From assembly GCA_031279515.1 (NCBI GenBank), contig JAITII010000032.1, positions 36,303 to 100,302 on the forward strand: 64,000 nucleotides of DNA, in the 5' to 3' direction. The DNA comes from Deltaproteobacteria bacterium. GTDB lineage: Bacteria > Desulfobacterota > Desulfarculia > Adiutricales > Adiutricaceae. This document shows positions 3,124-34,794 of this stretch, piece after piece (positions within the stretch are counted from its first letter, which is position 1; the number at the start of each line of letters is the position of its first letter). The position numbers were made by a program, and so were the translations under genes. The notes beneath the pieces were generated by a model. The model ran no database searches, was not told the origin of the DNA, and saw only the letters and a list, made by a program, of their open reading frames with translations.

Positions 3124-3865
3124 AGGGAGAAGCCAATAAAAGTAAAAATAAAAATTTTTATCATAAATACTATATAGTTATATATTTTTCCTTCTAAAAA
3201 AATAATTACCTAATAATCATATATAAGAAAAACTCTTATATGTTTTTTTAAGTTTTACTTTTCTATATAATTATACTTTTTCCAGTACTTCAAAAATATT
3301 TTTTTCCCTAAACGAAAATTCGCAAAACCCCAAAAACTTTTCAAAAAAATATCTAGCCCCTTACACTTGGCTATAGATAGTGCAGCTTACAAAAGATTTG
3401 CCCTCTAGAAATATCCTTTAAAAATTTCATAAAAATGCTGCCCTTTGTCTCAAAGGCTATCCCTCTTGGTGCAAAACTGCAAAATTCAGCCGGTACCCAG
3501 TTAGAGGAAGGCTATGAATCTACTTAGCAGAAATAAAATTTTTCCAATTTTTCTATATTTTCTACATATAGTATGAATGTTCATGAAACACTATACTTTT
3601 AATTAGCCACCTTTAGCCAAAGGGCCCCATCTATTATTTGCATAACTCTACAATATAATATTTATGGTAAAAAGAGCGCCCTTGGAACATCTGTAAGCAA
3701 CTAGGGCATTTCCGGGGAGGCCTTTCATTTTTAGAAAGCATTTTAGCCTTTGTGGAAACTTACAAGAGACAAGAGAACTATAATAATGGATAATATCAAC
3801 AGAAAATTTTTACCCCACCAAATAAATCCTGCTTGACAGCAGAAAAATAGGCAGTTTATAATAAT

Positions 3866-4054
3866 GGGGCGTAGGCGCCTTGAAGGCTTAATTGGGAATC
3901 CTGTGTAAGTCAGGGACGAGCCCATCGCTGTATTTCCATTTTCGGTAGAAACCGAACGAATTCGCTCAATTTTTTCAGTCACTAACCACTCCAGCCAGGT
4001 TGGGAAGGCTGAGCGCATTTGGGAAGAGTCAGAAGACCTGCCTAGGCACTGGAC
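3866..4054 (+). ncRNA. cobalamin riboswitch in the leader of exbB-exbD-tonB
   Basis: cttAATTGGGAAtcctGTGtAAgTCaggGACgaGCCCaTCGCTGTa ... gagTCAGaAGACCTGCCtaggcactgg matches the conserved cobalamin-riboswitch core and 3' motif; plus strand, about 155 nt upstream of exbB. Confidence 0.85.
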
Positions 4055-26120: not shown

Positions 26121-26211
26121 AAAAATAGCCCTTTTAGCCTATAAAGCTCAGTTTAAGTCCAAGACAGTTTTATCTTTACATAAATTGGCATCCAAGCTGC
26201 CGGAGGAGAAG

Positions 26212-29200
26212 ATGATCTACCGCACCTCTCAGCGGGGCACCTACCGCAACATAAATAACAACCTTAACCTCTTGTCCTGGCATATAGCCCAGCTGAGTAA
26301 CAAGGTAGCTTCGGAAAAACAGATAAATAAACCCTCCGATAATCCCTCTGGGGCTGCTGCTGTGCTCCGCACCCGCAGCACCCTATCTGAAATAGCCCAG
26401 CACACGGAAAACGTCTCCTTTTCCAATGATTGGCTCACCAATACTGGAAATGTCATGCAGAGCATCAAAGACGTCTTAGATCAGATCTACGTAAAAGCTG
26501 AGCAAGCTGCCACAGATGTCTACACAGCGGACCAGAGAAAGATAATAGCCACAGAGGTGGACCTGCTTTTCCAGACCATCATCCAATTTGGTGACTCTCG
26601 CTTCGGCTTTAACTATTTACTGGCCGGACAAGAGCTTCAGACCCAACCCTTTTCCAATGAGATGAGGGCCCAGGACGTAATAGCAGCCTGCCAAAATAGT
26701 GAAGGCTTTACTGGAAAAGTGGAAAACTATGGGGATAGGGAATATGAGTCCCGTCCGGATCTACCCACCCAGAGCCAGCTCTTTTTGATTGAATGCGTAG
26801 AGGCAGGGGGCATAGATTCCTTAAACTATGCCCACCAAAATGCCGACTCGGTCTCCCAGGCTATAGTAAATGGCACAAATGGCGCCTATAGTCTAACTTT
26901 AACCACCACCTCCCAAGCCTATAGGGATACCACAATAAAGTTCGTAGCTGGACAGGAAAATAATAACTCCACTGGGACTAAGTCAGCTACCTTTAGCTCT
27001 GCCGATAACCAGGTATCTTTTAGCTCCACAAATTCCACCAAGGGCCCTATTGACCTCTACTATACCTATGGCAATAGCGCAGGTACCTACGCTACTGAGG
27101 CAGCAGACGGCACCATAACCGTCTATCTTCAGACAGACCCCCAAGGGGAGCAATCAGTTGCCAGGGCCCGTGACGTAGCCGATGCAGTAAACGCCATTTC
27201 AGCCCAGACTTCCATTAGGGCCGATTACGCCTCCATCCCCTTTAGAGGGGGCATTGTAGAAATATCTAAAGATAGTAATGGCCAGCTGATGCGCACTAAG
27301 CTTTCCATTAATAATAATCTTAGCTATTCGATAAATGACGATGAGATAACTATTTATCTGGAAAGGGGGGCAACAGGCACCGGCCAAGAGGGCACAATTG
27401 TAAGCACAGTGGAAGAGGTGGTAGATTTTATCAATAATACCCCGGAGCTAGCAGAAAGGCTTAAGGCCTCTTATTCCTATCCCGATAGTGCTCTGGCACC
27501 TCCTCCCACCATGGAACCCGTGCAGGGTCCCATTTCCTTTACCCCCTCTGATGCCTATACCCTGGCCTATACTGAGATGACTATACCAGGGACCCACAAT
27601 GACATCAGGTGGTCCATCCTAAATGAGCCGGGTGCAGCTGTGGGCGAGGCGGGAAATGGGGTTACCATCCGCTACGACTTCTACAATCCTCCGGAGCAGA
27701 CTGCCGCCACTACTGCACAGTATAATTCAGCAGAAAATGCCTTAATTATCACCCTAGGGTCAAGCGGCTCGGCCTTTTTGGAGGAATATGCCAGGGCCTA
27801 TACCTCCCCAGCCTCAGCTACTTACGGAAATGCCAAAGAATCGGAGCTAGTTGCCCGTAAATATGCAGTAACAGCTACTGCCCAAGAGGTGATAGACGCA
27901 GTAGCCGCTCTAACAGACGCCCAAAACCCCTTGCATATTGGAGGCGTCCTGGCGGAGGGAAACTCCGGCCTAGGAAAGATGGTGGCCTCCAGCGCCCAGG
28001 TCCTAGCCAAGGGCTATGACCAGCCAGCCCTCTTTAGGGTCTCTCAAGATGGGGGCAAGACCTGGGGTCCCCCCCAGTCCTTTGCAGCCTCTGAGTTCCA
28101 AAACGGGCTCTTTTATAACTCTCAACTGGGACACGCCTCCCTCACTACAAGCCTAGCAGGTGGTGCCAATGACGTGGTCCTCACTGCCAACTACATGGGC
28201 ACCTGGGGCGACGATGTCCGCCTGGAATACCGCCAACCCACCTCAGCCAATCAAGAGGCCTCCATTACCCTAGGTCCCCAGTCCTGGAACATCTGCATTA
28301 ATCTTGCCACAGATGCCCAAGGCCGTGTAACTACCACGGCCAATGACGTAGTGGCTCTAATAAATCAGCATCCAGAGGCCGGCGCCCTGGTGACGGCCTC
28401 TCTGGCCGATTACCACGAGGGGGGAAGCGGCGTGGTAACCAAGATGGACTGCGTGTCCCTCTCTACGGCAAAACCTTATGAGGTAGAAGGGGTAACCCAG
28501 ATTACACCCTTGGGACATGCCACAGCAGCTGTCCGCTTTGCCTATTCCCCTCCTGCCCAAAAGTCACCGGATCTACTCTATCAGGCTATAGAGCACGGCA
28601 ATGCCGGTAATGCCATAGGCATCCGCTACACCCTGTCGGCGGACACCACTATCTACGGTTCTGCTCTACAGTATCAGGACCATGTCTCTATCTCATACGA
28701 GACCCTTTCCAACGGAGACCAGGTGGCCGTAGTCCACCTGGCCTCCGTCTCCCTTCCCAGCTGCCCAGACATCAATACGGAAAGGGAAGCCTATGACGCC
28801 TGGAGGGAACTCTACCCTGTCTATTCCTGCTCCTCTTCTAGGGCCACCACCTCCACAGCCGGGGATGTCCTCCAGGCCCTAGTTGCCAAGAACCTTGCCA
28901 GCCCCGATAGCGCCCTGGTCTGGGCCTCCATGGAGTACAAAGACGAGGGCTGGGATTCCACAGCCAAGGTGGGACCCACCACGGGCACCATTTGGCTCTC
29001 TGGGGGAGATGACACCATCAAAGAAGAGGACTACGGCATTAGCCTTAAGTTTATCCCCGATGGCACGGCCATAGGCGTAGGAGATATCTACCAGGTCTCC
29101 GTAGGTTGGTACAACGGAGACTCCAAAGATATAGATGTAAATGTCATGAACGGCTTCAGGACCGACATCAATACCACCGGAGAAGAGCTCTTAGGCGCCA

Positions 29201-29541
29201 ACGGCGCCTCAGACAATATCATGGATACCATCCAGAGGCTCCTTTGGGCCCTAGAGCATAACTACACGGAAATGGTGGAACAAGAGCTACCTAACCTGGA
29301 AAAGGCCGTCCAGAAGGTAACCATGATGGAAACTGCGGTGGGGACCAAACTTATCCGCAATCAGTTCGTGCAAAACACCTTAGATGACAACCAGTACGCA
29401 GCTGAGACAATACTTTCCGCCACAGAGGACGCAGACTTTACCCGCCTCATAACTGACCTCAAAAATGCCCAACTGGTCTATGAAGCAGTCTTAGGGACGA
29501 CAGGCCTTACTACCAAGCTGAGCCTCTTAAACTATCTTTAA
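26212..29541 (+). CDS. flgL: flagellar hook-associated protein 3 FlgL, giant (start revised to ATG 26212)
   Basis: GGAGGAG precedes ATG 26212; N-terminus MIYRTSQRGTYRNINNNLNLLSWHIAQLSNKVASEKQINKPSDNPSGAAAVLRTRS; C-terminus FTRLITDLKNAQLVYEAVLGTTGLTTKLSLLNYL. Confidence 0.93.
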   Translation: MIYRTSQRGTYRNINNNLNLLSWHIAQLSNKVASEKQINKPSDNPSGAAAVLRTRSTLSEIAQHTENVSFSNDWLTNTGNVMQSIKDVLDQIYVKAEQAATDVYTADQRKIIATEVDLLFQTIIQFGDSRFGFNYLLAGQELQTQPFSNEMRAQDVIAACQNSEGFTGKVENYGDREYESRPDLPTQSQLFLIECVEAGGIDSLNYAHQNADSVSQAIVNGTNGAYSLTLTTTSQAYRDTTIKFVAGQENNNSTGTKSATFSSADNQVSFSSTNSTKGPIDLYYTYGNSAGTYATEAADGTITVYLQTDPQGEQSVARARDVADAVNAISAQTSIRADYASIPFRGGIVEISKDSNGQLMRTKLSINNNLSYSINDDEITIYLERGATGTGQEGTIVSTVEEVVDFINNTPELAERLKASYSYPDSALAPPPTMEPVQGPISFTPSDAYTLAYTEMTIPGTHNDIRWSILNEPGAAVGEAGNGVTIRYDFYNPPEQTAATTAQYNSAENALIITLGSSGSAFLEEYARAYTSPASATYGNAKESELVARKYAVTATAQEVIDAVAALTDAQNPLHIGGVLAEGNSGLGKMVASSAQVLAKGYDQPALFRVSQDGGKTWGPPQSFAASEFQNGLFYNSQLGHASLTTSLAGGANDVVLTANYMGTWGDDVRLEYRQPTSANQEASITLGPQSWNICINLATDAQGRVTTTANDVVALINQHPEAGALVTASLADYHEGGSGVVTKMDCVSLSTAKPYEVEGVTQITPLGHATAAVRFAYSPPAQKSPDLLYQAIEHGNAGNAIGIRYTLSADTTIYGSALQYQDHVSISYETLSNGDQVAVVHLASVSLPSCPDINTEREAYDAWRELYPVYSCSSSRATTSTAGDVLQALVAKNLASPDSALVWASMEYKDEGWDSTAKVGPTTGTIWLSGGDDTIKEEDYGISLKFIPDGTAIGVGDIYQVSVGWYNGDSKDIDVNVMNGFRTDINTTGEELLGANGASDNIMDTIQRLLWALEHNYTEMVEQELPNLEKAVQKVTMMETAVGTKLIRNQFVQNTLDDNQYAAETILSATEDADFTRLITDLKNAQLVYEAVLGTTGLTTKLSLLNYL

Positions 29542-29659: not shown

Positions 29660-31201
29660 TTAGACGAAACGGTTATGTTGTAGGCTGTGCCTTATGTGCT
29701 GGACAAAGAGGGATAAAAGGCAGTTTAACTTCATCAGATTAGTACCTGGCGCGCCCAAGGCAAGCTGACCCTCCTTAAAGGGACGCTCGAACTCAAAGCG
29801 GGCCTTTAAAAAGACCTTGGTAAGCTCTGCGGCCTTTACTAGTGTTAACTCTTTTGCGGGCACCCTTGTCTTTAAGACGCAGCCGCCATCTGCCTGGACC
29901 CCTTGGGTAAGGAAATTCTTATTGGAAATACACATAAGCCCCTGGCCTTTGTCAAAGACTAAATGCACATGTTCAAGTAACTTTTGTAGCCTTAGCTCTC
30001 CAAATTTTTCTTTGAGCTCACCTAGCATCTTATCTATGTTCTCAGTAAGTATGGCATTGGAGGCCTTAAACTTCTTATTTAGCTCTCCCAATGCCAGTAC
30101 TAAGGAGCTGTACTCTATTTGCCTTTCTGCTCTCCTATCGGGGATATAACCAGGGCAATTTACTACAAAAAGCCTTGTACCTTTCTCCCTATTTAAAGAG
30201 CTCAAAGGGAAGTAAAAGTAATCTTGGCTTTCATCGCAAACGCCCCCAGAAAGCTTAGCGGCAAAAATAGACCTTAGTTGCGCATAAAAATGATAGTCCC
30301 AGTCCTCATACCTTAGCTCTTCTATAAGGCTAAGATCTTTAGGCGGAAAGGCTCCCAGCTCCCCCATATGGAAGTGCCTATGGATATAGTAGGTACTTGT
30401 AATATAGCTTAAGTTTTCCTCCATTTTGCTTCTTTCGATTAGCTCCGGGGAATAAACCCTAAATGAGAGGATCCTCCCTTCCCCGTCCACATATAGCCTA
30501 TAGGCTATTTTCTTTCTGTCCCTGGGGGAAATAGGGTCCTCACCTAGCCTGGGGATATAGTCAGGAAAGCGGGAAAAAGCTGATATCCCGTAGAGCTTCC
30601 TATAGAGATAGCGCTCCATGAACTTTAGATCAATGAGGCCATATTTGCCTATAAGCCACTTGTCCCCAAGGACTTTCTCTTTTCTGCTCGGCTTTAAAAG
30701 TTTCCCTTGCCACAAATAGTTCTTCATATCGAAGAAATCCTCTTCCACTAGAGGATCCTTTTCAGCTAGGAGCATAACTATCCGGTATTTGATAGCATTG
30801 TAGACCTCTTGGGGTGGATCCATTAACAGCCCTTTTATATTTAAGACATTAAACTGGCTCTCCAATGCCTTAATAAGATCCAAGGTATTGGGGATTTTTC
30901 GTCCCCAACCGGGCCTTACCAACTGGGTGAGACCCCCTAGCGGGTAATCCTTGATAGCCAATTGGAAATTCGCATAAATTGCTAATGGGTTCTCGCTTAA
31001 ATGAACGTGATACTTGGGCGCCATGCTGGGCGGCTCTATAAGGCAGCGCGTGGGCGTCTTTTCCTCTGTTTCACATGTACCAACTTCGTTTGCTTCCTTT
31101 AAATCAGAACCTTTGTCAGCTTGTACCCTAATGCCACAGGGGCGTAAAAATTGTCCCAAGGCTATAAGCAAAGCCTTAATACTTTTCAAAATACCAGGCA
31201 A
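29660..31201 (-). CDS. hypothetical protein, 513 aa, no family recognised
   Basis: Long ORF on the expected strand opposite a bidirectional terminator. Confidence 0.75.
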   Translation of the reverse strand: MPGILKSIKALLIALGQFLRPCGIRVQADKGSDLKEANEVGTCETEEKTPTRCLIEPPSMAPKYHVHLSENPLAIYANFQLAIKDYPLGGLTQLVRPGWGRKIPNTLDLIKALESQFNVLNIKGLLMDPPQEVYNAIKYRIVMLLAEKDPLVEEDFFDMKNYLWQGKLLKPSRKEKVLGDKWLIGKYGLIDLKFMERYLYRKLYGISAFSRFPDYIPRLGEDPISPRDRKKIAYRLYVDGEGRILSFRVYSPELIERSKMEENLSYITSTYYIHRHFHMGELGAFPPKDLSLIEELRYEDWDYHFYAQLRSIFAAKLSGGVCDESQDYFYFPLSSLNREKGTRLFVVNCPGYIPDRRAERQIEYSSLVLALGELNKKFKASNAILTENIDKMLGELKEKFGELRLQKLLEHVHLVFDKGQGLMCISNKNFLTQGVQADGGCVLKTRVPAKELTLVKAAELTKVFLKARFEFERPFKEGQLALGAPGTNLMKLNCLLSLFVQHIRHSLQHNRFV

Positions 31202-31530: not shown

Positions 31531-32220
31531 GGATTTTAATATTTCGCTGACCCTTTCAAAGGGCAAAAAAACCTTAGATCTTTTTAAAAGCCTAAACCCT
31601 CTAGGAATTTTTAAAAAGGAACATATTAAAAAAATATCCTTCCTATATATCAGGCAATTTCGTAGCCCTTTTTTCAGGCATTTTGAGCCTTTTTTTTGTG
31701 CCTTTCTTCAATAAGCCTTATTCTATATGGATAAAAAAATTTTTCCACACTTTTAATATAATACTATATCTTTTAATCTAATGCTATGATATTTTACATA
31801 ATACTATAATATTTAACATAAAACATTAATATAGTCTGAGCTAGCGGCAAAACCCTCGCTAGCTAAAATAGAAGACGGCTAACTTAGAAGTTTTCACTTG
31901 GCTCCCATTTCAAATTTAGCCTCTCTTTACAAGCCCTTGTGCCTTTTTAAATAGGTGCCTTCCTATGATGTTAAATTTCTTGCATAAAAAACTTCAATGG
32001 GCACAAAAGGGGAAACAAATAAATTAAAGCTTAAAGTTTTCCCTAGGCTTAAAATTTCACAAATATCATTTTCTAAAAAAGAATCTTTAAAGGGCCTTTG
32101 TTAATTTTATAAATTTACTATAGTTAAACTAATTGCATTTTCACTTTGACTTTTGTGCCCCGGGTGCTTACATTTAGAAATGAGTCAAGCTTAGCTTACC
32201 GCCAATTTTAGGAGGCAAGA

Positions 32221-34794
32221 TTGCCCAAAGAACTCTATAACCTCACTGGACTTAGCTGCGCAGCCTGCGGAGCTAGGGTGGAAAAGGCCGTAAAGGCTCT
32301 GCCTGGGGTCACCCGAGCCGACGTCAATCTACTAAAAAGCAGCCTCACCTTAGAGCACGACCCCGCCTTGACTGCCCCACAGGTAATAGATGCCATAGAG
32401 AAGGCGGGTTACGGGGCATCTCTACCCAGTGCCAAGGCCGCAAAAAGCCAGTCTGACTCCCCTCAAGAACGCTTCAAAAAAGAAGCTTCCCAGATGCTGT
32501 ATAGACTCAAGGTCTCCATTATCTTTACTGTGCCCTTGTTCTATCTGGCCATGGGACATATGTTTTCCTGGCCCATACCCCACTTTTTTTTGGGGCATAA
32601 TGGGGCCCTACCTTTGGCCTTCACCCAGTTTCTCTTACTACTTCCAGTTATCCTGGTAAACCACCTCTACTTTCAAAACGGGATAAAGAGCCTGTGGCAT
32701 AGGGCTCCCAACATGGACTCCCTCATAGCCGTGGGATCAGGGGCTGCGGCTGTTTATGGTCTAATTATTCTTTACCAGATGATGTTCCACTTAAATGACC
32801 CGGCCTTCCTGCACAAAGCCTCAATGGCACTCTACTTTGAGTCAGGTGCCACTATCTTAACCTTAGTCACCACCGGTAAGTACATGGAAACCAGGGCCAA
32901 GGCAAGAACAGGGGCAGCAATAGAGGCTCTTTTGGCACTGGCTCCCAAGACAGCTCTCATCTTGAAAAATGGTGAAGAAGTCACCATTCAAGCAGAAGAG
33001 CTAAGACCCCAAGACGAATTAGTCATAAAAACTGGGATGGTAGCTGCTGCAGACGGCACAGTCATTCAAGGGGAGGGGGCAGTGGATGAATCTGCCTTGA
33101 CCGGGGAGAGCCTGCCTGTGGACAAAGAGGTAGGTAGCCCTATTACCGGGGGAACCTCACTTTCATCTGGGCATCTCTTGGTAAAAGTTACCAAGGTGGG
33201 TGACGATACCACTCTGGCCCAAATTATCCGTCTAGTGGACGAGGCCACAGGTACCAAGGCGCCAATTGCCGCCCTGGCAGACAAGATAAGTGGAATCTTT
33301 GTGCCACTGGTCATCTGCATTGCCATTGCCTCAGGTACGATCTGGTTTATGTTAGGTGAGCCAATAGGATTTTGCCTCACCATCTTGATCTCAGTACTTG
33401 TGATATCCTGCCCTTGCGCCTTGGGACTTGCCACCCCCACGGCCATTATGGTGGGCTCAGGCGTTGGGGCTAACTTAGGCGTACTTTTTAAATCCGCCTC
33501 TTCCTTAGAGCAGAGCTCTAAGGTGGAAGTTGTAGTCTTAGATAAGACAGGAACCTTAACTCTAGGAGAGCCTTCTGTAAAAAATATCCTACCTGTTGCC
33601 CCTACCGATGAAAACGAGCTCCTTTGCCTCCTCTATTCCTTGGAGCTCTTATCTGAACACCCCTTGGCCAAGGCCATCGTGGAGATGGCCAAATCCAAGG
33701 GCCTTACCTCAAAACCAGTGGAATCTTTTAAGCAGCTGCCAGGTCAAGGACTATCCGGGATTATCGATGGAGAGGAGTATTTTGTTGGTAACAGTAAAAT
33801 TATAGGTGCCCTTGGGATAACTGACGAAGATCTCTCCCTTAAGTCCAATGAATTTTCCCAAAAAGGCCTTACCACCCTTTTCTGCGCTAAAAAAGATAGG
33901 CTACTTGGCCTTTTGGCCTTAGGAGACACCCTAAAGCCCAAAAGCACCCAGGCTGTAGCCGAGCTCCACAAGCTTAAGATTAAGACTGTTATGCTTACAG
34001 GCGATAACGCCGTAACAGCCCAAGCCATTGCCGCTGAAAGCGGCGTAGGCAAGGTGATAGCTGAGGTCTATCCCCAGGATAAGGAAAAGGAAATTGTAAA
34101 GTTACAAAAAGAGGGATTTGTAACTGCCATGGTGGGAGACGGGATAAACGATGCCCCTGCCTTGGCCAGGGCCGATGTAGGCATAGCCATTGGCGCGGGC
34201 ACAGACGTAGCAGTAGAGACTGCCGACGTGGTCCTCATGAAAAGTGACCTTATGGACGTGCCCGTTACTATACTTTTAGCCAGAGCGGTTATGCGCAATA
34301 TCCGCCAAAACCTTTTCTGGGCCTTTGGCTACAATGTCATAGGCATACCAATAGCTGCCGGCATCTTCTTTAAGGCCTTTGGCCTTACCTTAAATCCCAT
34401 GATAGCCGCTCTGGCCATGAGCTTGTCCTCTGTCTGCGTAGTCACCAATGCCTTAAGGCTTAAGTTTTTTAAGCCCAAGCTAGCTGACGACTCAAGTAAG
34501 GGCCCCGATAGTGCCAGCTCCCAAAATAAACAAGATATAATAGCGCCTAATGCAACTACTTTCGCGCTGCAAAGTGAGGAACATAAAATGGAAGTAAAAC
34601 TCAAGGTAGACGGCATGACCTGCGGTCATTGCTCCAGCAGAGTAGAAAAGGCCCTTTCCGAGATCCCGGAAGTAAAAAAGGCCAAGGTGGATCTCTCAAA
34701 AGGAATAGCTACTGTTACCCTCAAAAGTGAGGTCTCTAATGATGTCCTCACCCAAAAGGTGGTAAACGCCGGATACGAGGCCACAGTAATTTAA
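32221..34794 (+). CDS. copA: Cu(I)-translocating P1B-type ATPase CopA with N- and C-terminal HMA domains (TTG start)
   Basis: GLSCAACGARVEKAV, ISCPCALGLATPTA, DKTGTLTLGE, MVGDGINDAPALA, C-terminal DGMTCGHCSSRVEKAL. Confidence 0.95.
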   Translation: MPKELYNLTGLSCAACGARVEKAVKALPGVTRADVNLLKSSLTLEHDPALTAPQVIDAIEKAGYGASLPSAKAAKSQSDSPQERFKKEASQMLYRLKVSIIFTVPLFYLAMGHMFSWPIPHFFLGHNGALPLAFTQFLLLLPVILVNHLYFQNGIKSLWHRAPNMDSLIAVGSGAAAVYGLIILYQMMFHLNDPAFLHKASMALYFESGATILTLVTTGKYMETRAKARTGAAIEALLALAPKTALILKNGEEVTIQAEELRPQDELVIKTGMVAAADGTVIQGEGAVDESALTGESLPVDKEVGSPITGGTSLSSGHLLVKVTKVGDDTTLAQIIRLVDEATGTKAPIAALADKISGIFVPLVICIAIASGTIWFMLGEPIGFCLTILISVLVISCPCALGLATPTAIMVGSGVGANLGVLFKSASSLEQSSKVEVVVLDKTGTLTLGEPSVKNILPVAPTDENELLCLLYSLELLSEHPLAKAIVEMAKSKGLTSKPVESFKQLPGQGLSGIIDGEEYFVGNSKIIGALGITDEDLSLKSNEFSQKGLTTLFCAKKDRLLGLLALGDTLKPKSTQAVAELHKLKIKTVMLTGDNAVTAQAIAAESGVGKVIAEVYPQDKEKEIVKLQKEGFVTAMVGDGINDAPALARADVGIAIGAGTDVAVETADVVLMKSDLMDVPVTILLARAVMRNIRQNLFWAFGYNVIGIPIAAGIFFKAFGLTLNPMIAALAMSLSSVCVVTNALRLKFFKPKLADDSSKGPDSASSQNKQDIIAPNATTFALQSEEHKMEVKLKVDGMTCGHCSSRVEKALSEIPEVKKAKVDLSKGIATVTLKSEVSNDVLTQKVVNAGYEATVI
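34588..34794 (+). CDS. candidate internally initiated CopZ-like copper chaperone (68 aa), in frame with copA 3' end
   Basis: In-frame ATG 34588 preceded by GTGAGGAACATAAA (AGGA-type RBS); complete HMA domain MEVKLKVDGMTCGHCSSRVEKALSEIPEVKKAKVDLSKGIATVTLKSEVSNDVLTQKVVNAGYEATVI. Confidence 0.45.
   Translation: MEVKLKVDGMTCGHCSSRVEKALSEIPEVKKAKVDLSKGIATVTLKSEVSNDVLTQKVVNAGYEATVI

Follow-up and report, generated by a model that had tools for sequence, protein, structure and literature searches.

A predicted copZ gene nested at the 3′ end of copA, with an internal start conserved among fused copA genes of several phyla

Architecture and surroundings of the copA gene

The window, a stretch of 64,000 nucleotides from a genome of the family Adiutricaceae, includes a copA gene whose product has metal-binding HMA domains at both ends. 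Its features, including the Shine-Dalgarno (SD) sequences discussed below, are as follows.

32210..32215, + strand: AGGAGG, SD of full-length copA (SD dG -10.2)
32221..34794, + strand: copA, encoding the full-length CopA-CopZ fusion of 857 amino acids, with a TTG start and a TAA stop
32242..32412, + strand: N-terminal HMA domain of the CAAC type, the signature of ATPase metal-binding domains
32482..34479, + strand: P1B-type ATPase core (membrane helices; A, P and N domains), limits approximate
34480..34587, + strand: low-complexity linker (residues 754-789), disordered by pLDDT, unalignable in relatives and containing the internal SD
34574..34580, + strand: GTGAGGA, predicted internal SD for the nested copZ (dG -7.8), with a counterpart in relatives
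34588..34590, + strand: internal in-frame ATG (codon 790), predicted start of the nested copZ
34588..34794, + strand: predicted nested copZ, encoding a 68-amino acid CopZ-type copper chaperone (GMTCGHC; HMA 61.9 bits)
34612..34632, + strand: GMTCGHC, copper-binding motif of the chaperone domain

An earlier note on this DNA described the gene as a copA with a CopZ-type domain fused to its C-terminus, and the Pfam matches bear this out. There are two HMA domains at opposite ends of the 857-amino acid protein, and matches to E1-E2_ATPase and Hydrolase confirm the ATPase core. The score against TIGR01511, the model for copper-translocating P-type ATPases, is 569.5 bits with a cut-off of 397, as is required of a P1B-1 CopA. 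The core ends in the conserved sequence NALRLKFFKPK and is followed by the linker, which had already been recognized as low in complexity and is predicted to be disordered. An AlphaFold model based on an alignment of 15 fused relatives has a mean pLDDT of 74; linker residues 756-788 have values below 50, while the C-terminal domain is modelled confidently as a ferredoxin-like fold whose first strand begins at residue 790, with pLDDT values of 87-90 from there. Thus, the candidate start codon lies exactly on the domain boundary.

The earlier note had also pointed to this in-frame ATG and the GTGAGGA upstream of it as opening a complete HMA domain, which proves correct. The two are separated by 7 nucleotides, and the isolated 68-amino acid segment aligns to positions 2-62 of the 62 in Pfam HMA, its 61.9 bits standing against a cut-off of 24.8. 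Although the internal SD is only of moderate strength in the window, its duplex energy is the best found among the in-frame ATG codons of the gene (runner-up -6.3). The 3′ end of 16S rRNA with its anti-SD was not found in the metagenome-assembled genome itself, and an anti-SD was therefore assumed for the host; it was present in the 16S recovered from just two of ten related genomes, the remainder being probably incomplete or masked. In this genome, a weak hairpin (-5.9 kcal/mol) predicted at 34558-34608 overlaps the internal SD in part; relatives have, on average, a far less structured start region.

The copA gene stands alone. Upstream are flagellar hook genes and a minus-strand ORF of unassigned function (29660-31201, 513 amino acids, without a Pfam match), and downstream are a convergent amidohydrolase gene and a gene for an M24 peptidase. 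Beside flgK lies a gene for a protein of 1118 amino acids (26185-29541) that matches the flagellin N-terminal helix at its start alone and has a very long unmatched remainder. There is no copZ adjacent to copA in the window, and the search for a separate copZ that the earlier note had proposed found none in the genome, which is 93.8% complete and could therefore hold one that was overlooked. The only HMA matches genome-wide are the two in this CopA and a weak one in another frame of 850 amino acids.

Distribution of the fusion and conservation of the internal start

The fusion with the C-terminal domain is found in 26 of the 36 other genomes of Adiutricaceae, or in 27 genomes of the family when the window's own is included (among these, G017 has an apparent frame break and G002 is partial). 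A standalone CopZ frame was found in none of these 27 genomes at the listed E-values. Some unfused genomes of the family carry a small separate CopZ (G006, G013, G018 and G022), and 21 of the 23 genomes from other families of the order and class have a standalone CopZ, the other two being without any HMA match. In one genus of the family (g8; L011 and L028-L031) the frame is especially long, at 946-1170 amino acids, and has long low-complexity linkers.

A scan of named genomes yielded 80 loci, mostly fused, from Clostridia, Eggerthellaceae, Desulfovibrio, Mucispirillum, SAR324, Peptoniphilaceae and others. The search patterns involved the final membrane helix together with the HMA motif, such that the internal start and its SD played no part in the selection. 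In even draws, about 59 of 196 genomes of one Clostridia-class group carry the fusion, as do 4 of 198 genomes of the window's own phylum, the window included. On a tree of ATPase cores made with FastTree, in which many forks are weak, approximately six changes of fusion state are needed to account for 109 genes, and 79 of the 82 genes in a single deep clade are fused. This last observation leads us to regard the fusion as ancient. The arrangement, which the earlier note had described for this gene alone, is common to a large clade of CopA genes across several phyla.

Two members of this collection depart from the usual layout. In L023 (G018; positions 3664-4033), copA and copZ are split into frames that overlap by a few bases (GGTGCTTAA), and copZ is intact behind AAAAAGGAG and a GTG codon (AAAGGAG...GTG). 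This locus sits inside the fused clade with weak tree support, and could represent either a natural fission or an unfused ancestor. The Peptoniphilus copA gene L127 apparently encodes two tandem C-terminal HMA domains, the last of which has its own AAAGGAG and ATG.

The linkers of fused loci range from 12 to 144 codons. Frame 0 is open across the linker in all 124 loci scored, whereas the +1 frame is open in 36 and the +2 frame in 14, and base shuffling leaves a linker free of stops in 19% of cases. Thus, the fusion is kept as a translated protein, and the long form, too, is evidently maintained.

Conservation of the internal ATG and ribosome binding site in relatives, which the earlier note had named as a check, was scored in 126 fused copA loci from the same family, Desulfovibrio, Clostridia, Eggerthellaceae, Mucispirillum and others. 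These loci are related, and so neither the counts nor the P value given below are independent. A start codon is found at the beginning of the HMA domain in 124 of them (121 ATG and 3 GTG), usually located 8 codons before the GMxCxxC motif, and a strong SD (dG <= -6) precedes it in 110, with a median of -8.7. For comparison, the 1561 in-frame ATG codons in the same ATPase cores have a median of -2.9, with 14.6% at or below -6, and 18.2% of 2469 other linker positions reach this value. When loci are grouped at 70% HMA identity, start and SD occur together in 83 of 91 clusters, against 2.45% of core windows. A separate, evenly drawn sample, comprising a Clostridia group and three genomes of the window's phylum and overlapping the first set by one locus (L151 is L074), has starts in 27 of 27 loci and dG <= -6 in 23. 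There is no ATG and no SD at any of the ten second HMA domains from tandem N-terminal pairs.

The internal start codon is missing only from L071 and L094 among the 126 fused loci. In G081, the genome that carries L094, a small separate HMA protein with a CPKC motif (L223) is encoded some 2 kb from copA, as if compensating.

The details of the SD site indicate what is being conserved. Between 12 and 9 nucleotides upstream of the start codon, 96-100% of bases are purines, while the linker surrounding the start has no consensus and cannot be aligned between relatives. The SD occurs in three codon registers, which are KEE-like in 52 loci, KGE-like in 36 and RS-like in 7; because the resulting peptides differ, it is the nucleotides that are conserved and not the peptide. 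Three loci (L067, L081 and L082) have their ATG farther from the motif than the usual 8 codons, at 12-14, and the SD is shifted along with it. In all 93 loci examined for local structure, the start region is also less structured than the core of the gene. A null model of synonymous recoding gives a combined P of 4e-14, but individual genes yield weak results (median P 0.21), since the amino acids of the linker are in themselves compatible with an SD. Taken together, these patterns point to selection on the internal start and SD at the nucleotide level.

Standalone copZ genes provide a further comparison. Among 33 of them, the start usually precedes the motif by 7-9 codons and the median SD dG is -9.8. 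The nested start shares this position and has an SD of close strength, and thus resembles an ordinary copZ start. The copper-binding motifs agree with such an identity. CopZ chaperones and ATPase metal-binding domains differ in having CxHC and CAAC/CSAC-like motifs, respectively. Of 124 fused loci, 119 have CxHC in the C-terminal domain, while the N-terminal motif is CAAC/CSAC-like in 83 of 89, with histidine in 3 of 89 N-terminal domains. The best NCBIfam matches of the 68-amino acid segment are CopZ models (NF047957, 68.1 against a cut-off of 85; NF033794, 67.5 against 95), and since both scores fall below the curated cut-offs we name the segment CopZ-type only.

Small extra HMA frames in 26 other fused genomes were considered as separate CopZ proteins and set aside, as they are mostly of a DLDCANC type or membrane-anchored rather than CxHC (of the extra-HMA regions fetched, L231 and L234 yielded no readable HMA frame). 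The DLDCANC-type proteins, in frames of approximately 72-97 amino acids, recur in fused Clostridia and Eggerthellaceae genomes (L224, L225, L227-L229, L232 and L235-L241). They are distinct from CopZ and, as a guess, might be partners of Cd/Zn ATPases.

Internal initiation and competing explanations

There is a conserved in-frame start with an SD at a domain boundary, as is characteristic of genes within genes. The earlier note would have counted a lack of conservation of the ATG and its ribosome binding site, and a separate copZ elsewhere, against its reading; neither was observed, and that reading is supported. We consider it highly likely that copA is a conserved gene-within-gene that yields the CopA-CopZ fusion and also, through internal initiation, a free CopZ of about 7 kDa. 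Ribosomes initiating at the TTG codon at 32221 would produce the copper ATPase with its tethered CopZ domain, and other ribosomes would initiate at the ATG at 34588, guided by the SD within the linker codons, to produce the free protein. The free chaperone might then gather cytosolic Cu(I) and hand it over to the pump, and the tethered copy could serve as a local metal donor or sensor. We infer from the sequences that the short protein is made, and likewise its ratio to the pump, any response to copper and the function of each form. A free copy of CopZ would make sense because the membrane sites of Archaeoglobus fulgidus CopA (AfCopA) receive Cu(I) from CopZ, whereas isolated metal-binding domains were unable to supply them in vitro (PMC11970713).

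Some 120 related genes in many gut and anaerobic bacteria very probably share this capacity to make both the pump and a free carrier from one gene. It is also likely that they represent an old and widespread class of copA genes (approximately 59 of 196 sampled Clostridia-class genomes, Eggerthellaceae, Desulfovibrio, Mucispirillum and Adiutricaceae) in which copZ survives mainly as a nested gene with an internal start, and in which pump and chaperone are made from one mRNA in a ratio set by the two SDs.

One alternative is that copZ was once a separate gene behind copA and that the intervening stop codon was lost, leaving the old start and SD functionless. There are indeed loci in which copA and copZ are adjacent but separate genes and the same SD and ATG are present (L114, L133, L138, L156 and L203-L209). 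However, the fusion is old and the linkers have since become unalignable, yet SD and ATG persist, and the SD has altered its codon register and its position jointly with the ATG. An intact start within saturated linkers of an old fusion makes such a relic very unlikely. It is also highly improbable that the fusion protein alone is made and that its C-terminal HMA stays tethered and acts as a regulatory metal-binding domain, as in Archaeoglobus CopA, with the methionine and the purine-rich codons being protein-level features. Terminal metal-binding domains of CopA are known and are dispensable for AfCopA activity (PMC11970713), and the linkers are rich in K, E and G, but the peptide at the SD site varies (KEE, KGE or RS) while the nucleotides agree, and three loci use GTG in place of ATG. 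Moreover, the domain has the chaperone motif CxHC, and the fused genomes of the family have no other CopZ.

Other explanations accept a role for the linker or its SD but do not invoke internal initiation on the long transcript. Since frameshifting can be stimulated by SD-like elements, the internal SD could in principle promote -1 frameshifting or pausing. This reading is barely credible, as slippery heptamers of the kind needed for an E. coli-type frameshift occur near the ATG in 4 of 89 loci, below the 6.4% of background windows, and there is a conserved start codon at the usual distance from the SD. Free CopZ could instead arise by proteolysis of the linker, which is long and predicted to be disordered, or from an internal promoter. 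We give this little chance, since the linker has no conserved peptide, there is no promoter-like site on the plus strand within the gene, and conservation of an SD and a start is not needed for either process, although transcripts from an internal promoter would still be translated from the same start.

Relation to known systems

The open-access literature, which was the scope of the search, yielded no description of a copZ start nested in copA. If internal initiation at this ATG is correct, there would be a second, unrelated route from one copA gene to pump and chaperone, beside the frameshifting of E. coli, and the case would be one of unusually broad conservation for an internal start. Gene-finding programs that assign a single start to each frame would record the long form only, and inventories of copper homeostasis would therefore score such genomes as lacking CopZ. 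The arrangement also makes a disputed point directly testable, as mutation of a single start codon would show what a tethered metal-binding domain does in comparison with a free CopZ of identical sequence.

E. coli CopA(Z) is the N-terminal domain of CopA. It is made by frameshifting, as stated in PMC9548414 with reference to Meydan 2017 and Drees 2017. In both cases a copper ATPase and a free copper chaperone would come from one copA gene. The earlier note rightly drew the contrast between them: in E. coli programmed -1 frameshifting frees the N-terminal domain, whereas here the C-terminal CxHC domain would be restarted in frame at an internal ATG.

C-terminal products from internal in-frame starts are known for Rpn (PMC10327210), Cas11 (PMC11899642) and SpaO (PMC13059759), where a full-length and a C-terminal product likewise share one frame. 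Their short products are antitoxins or complex subunits, whereas here the product would be a metallochaperone for its own pump. Unlike these examples, the nested copZ is orthologous to a standalone gene in other lineages.

Two metal-binding domains are mentioned for A. fulgidus CopA (PMC11970713), and its C-terminal one is attributed to Agarwal 2010 in PMC7558416, such that this protein also has metal-binding domains at both termini. In contrast to the fused genes, CopZ of A. fulgidus is a separate protein with a fused iron-sulphur domain (PMC7558416), and that article describes no internal start. The copA-copZ operons of Bacillota encode the same two proteins, and their copZ start and SD are at the same place relative to the domain. 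There, the two genes form separate frames divided by the copA stop codon, whereas in the window they lie in a single continuous frame.
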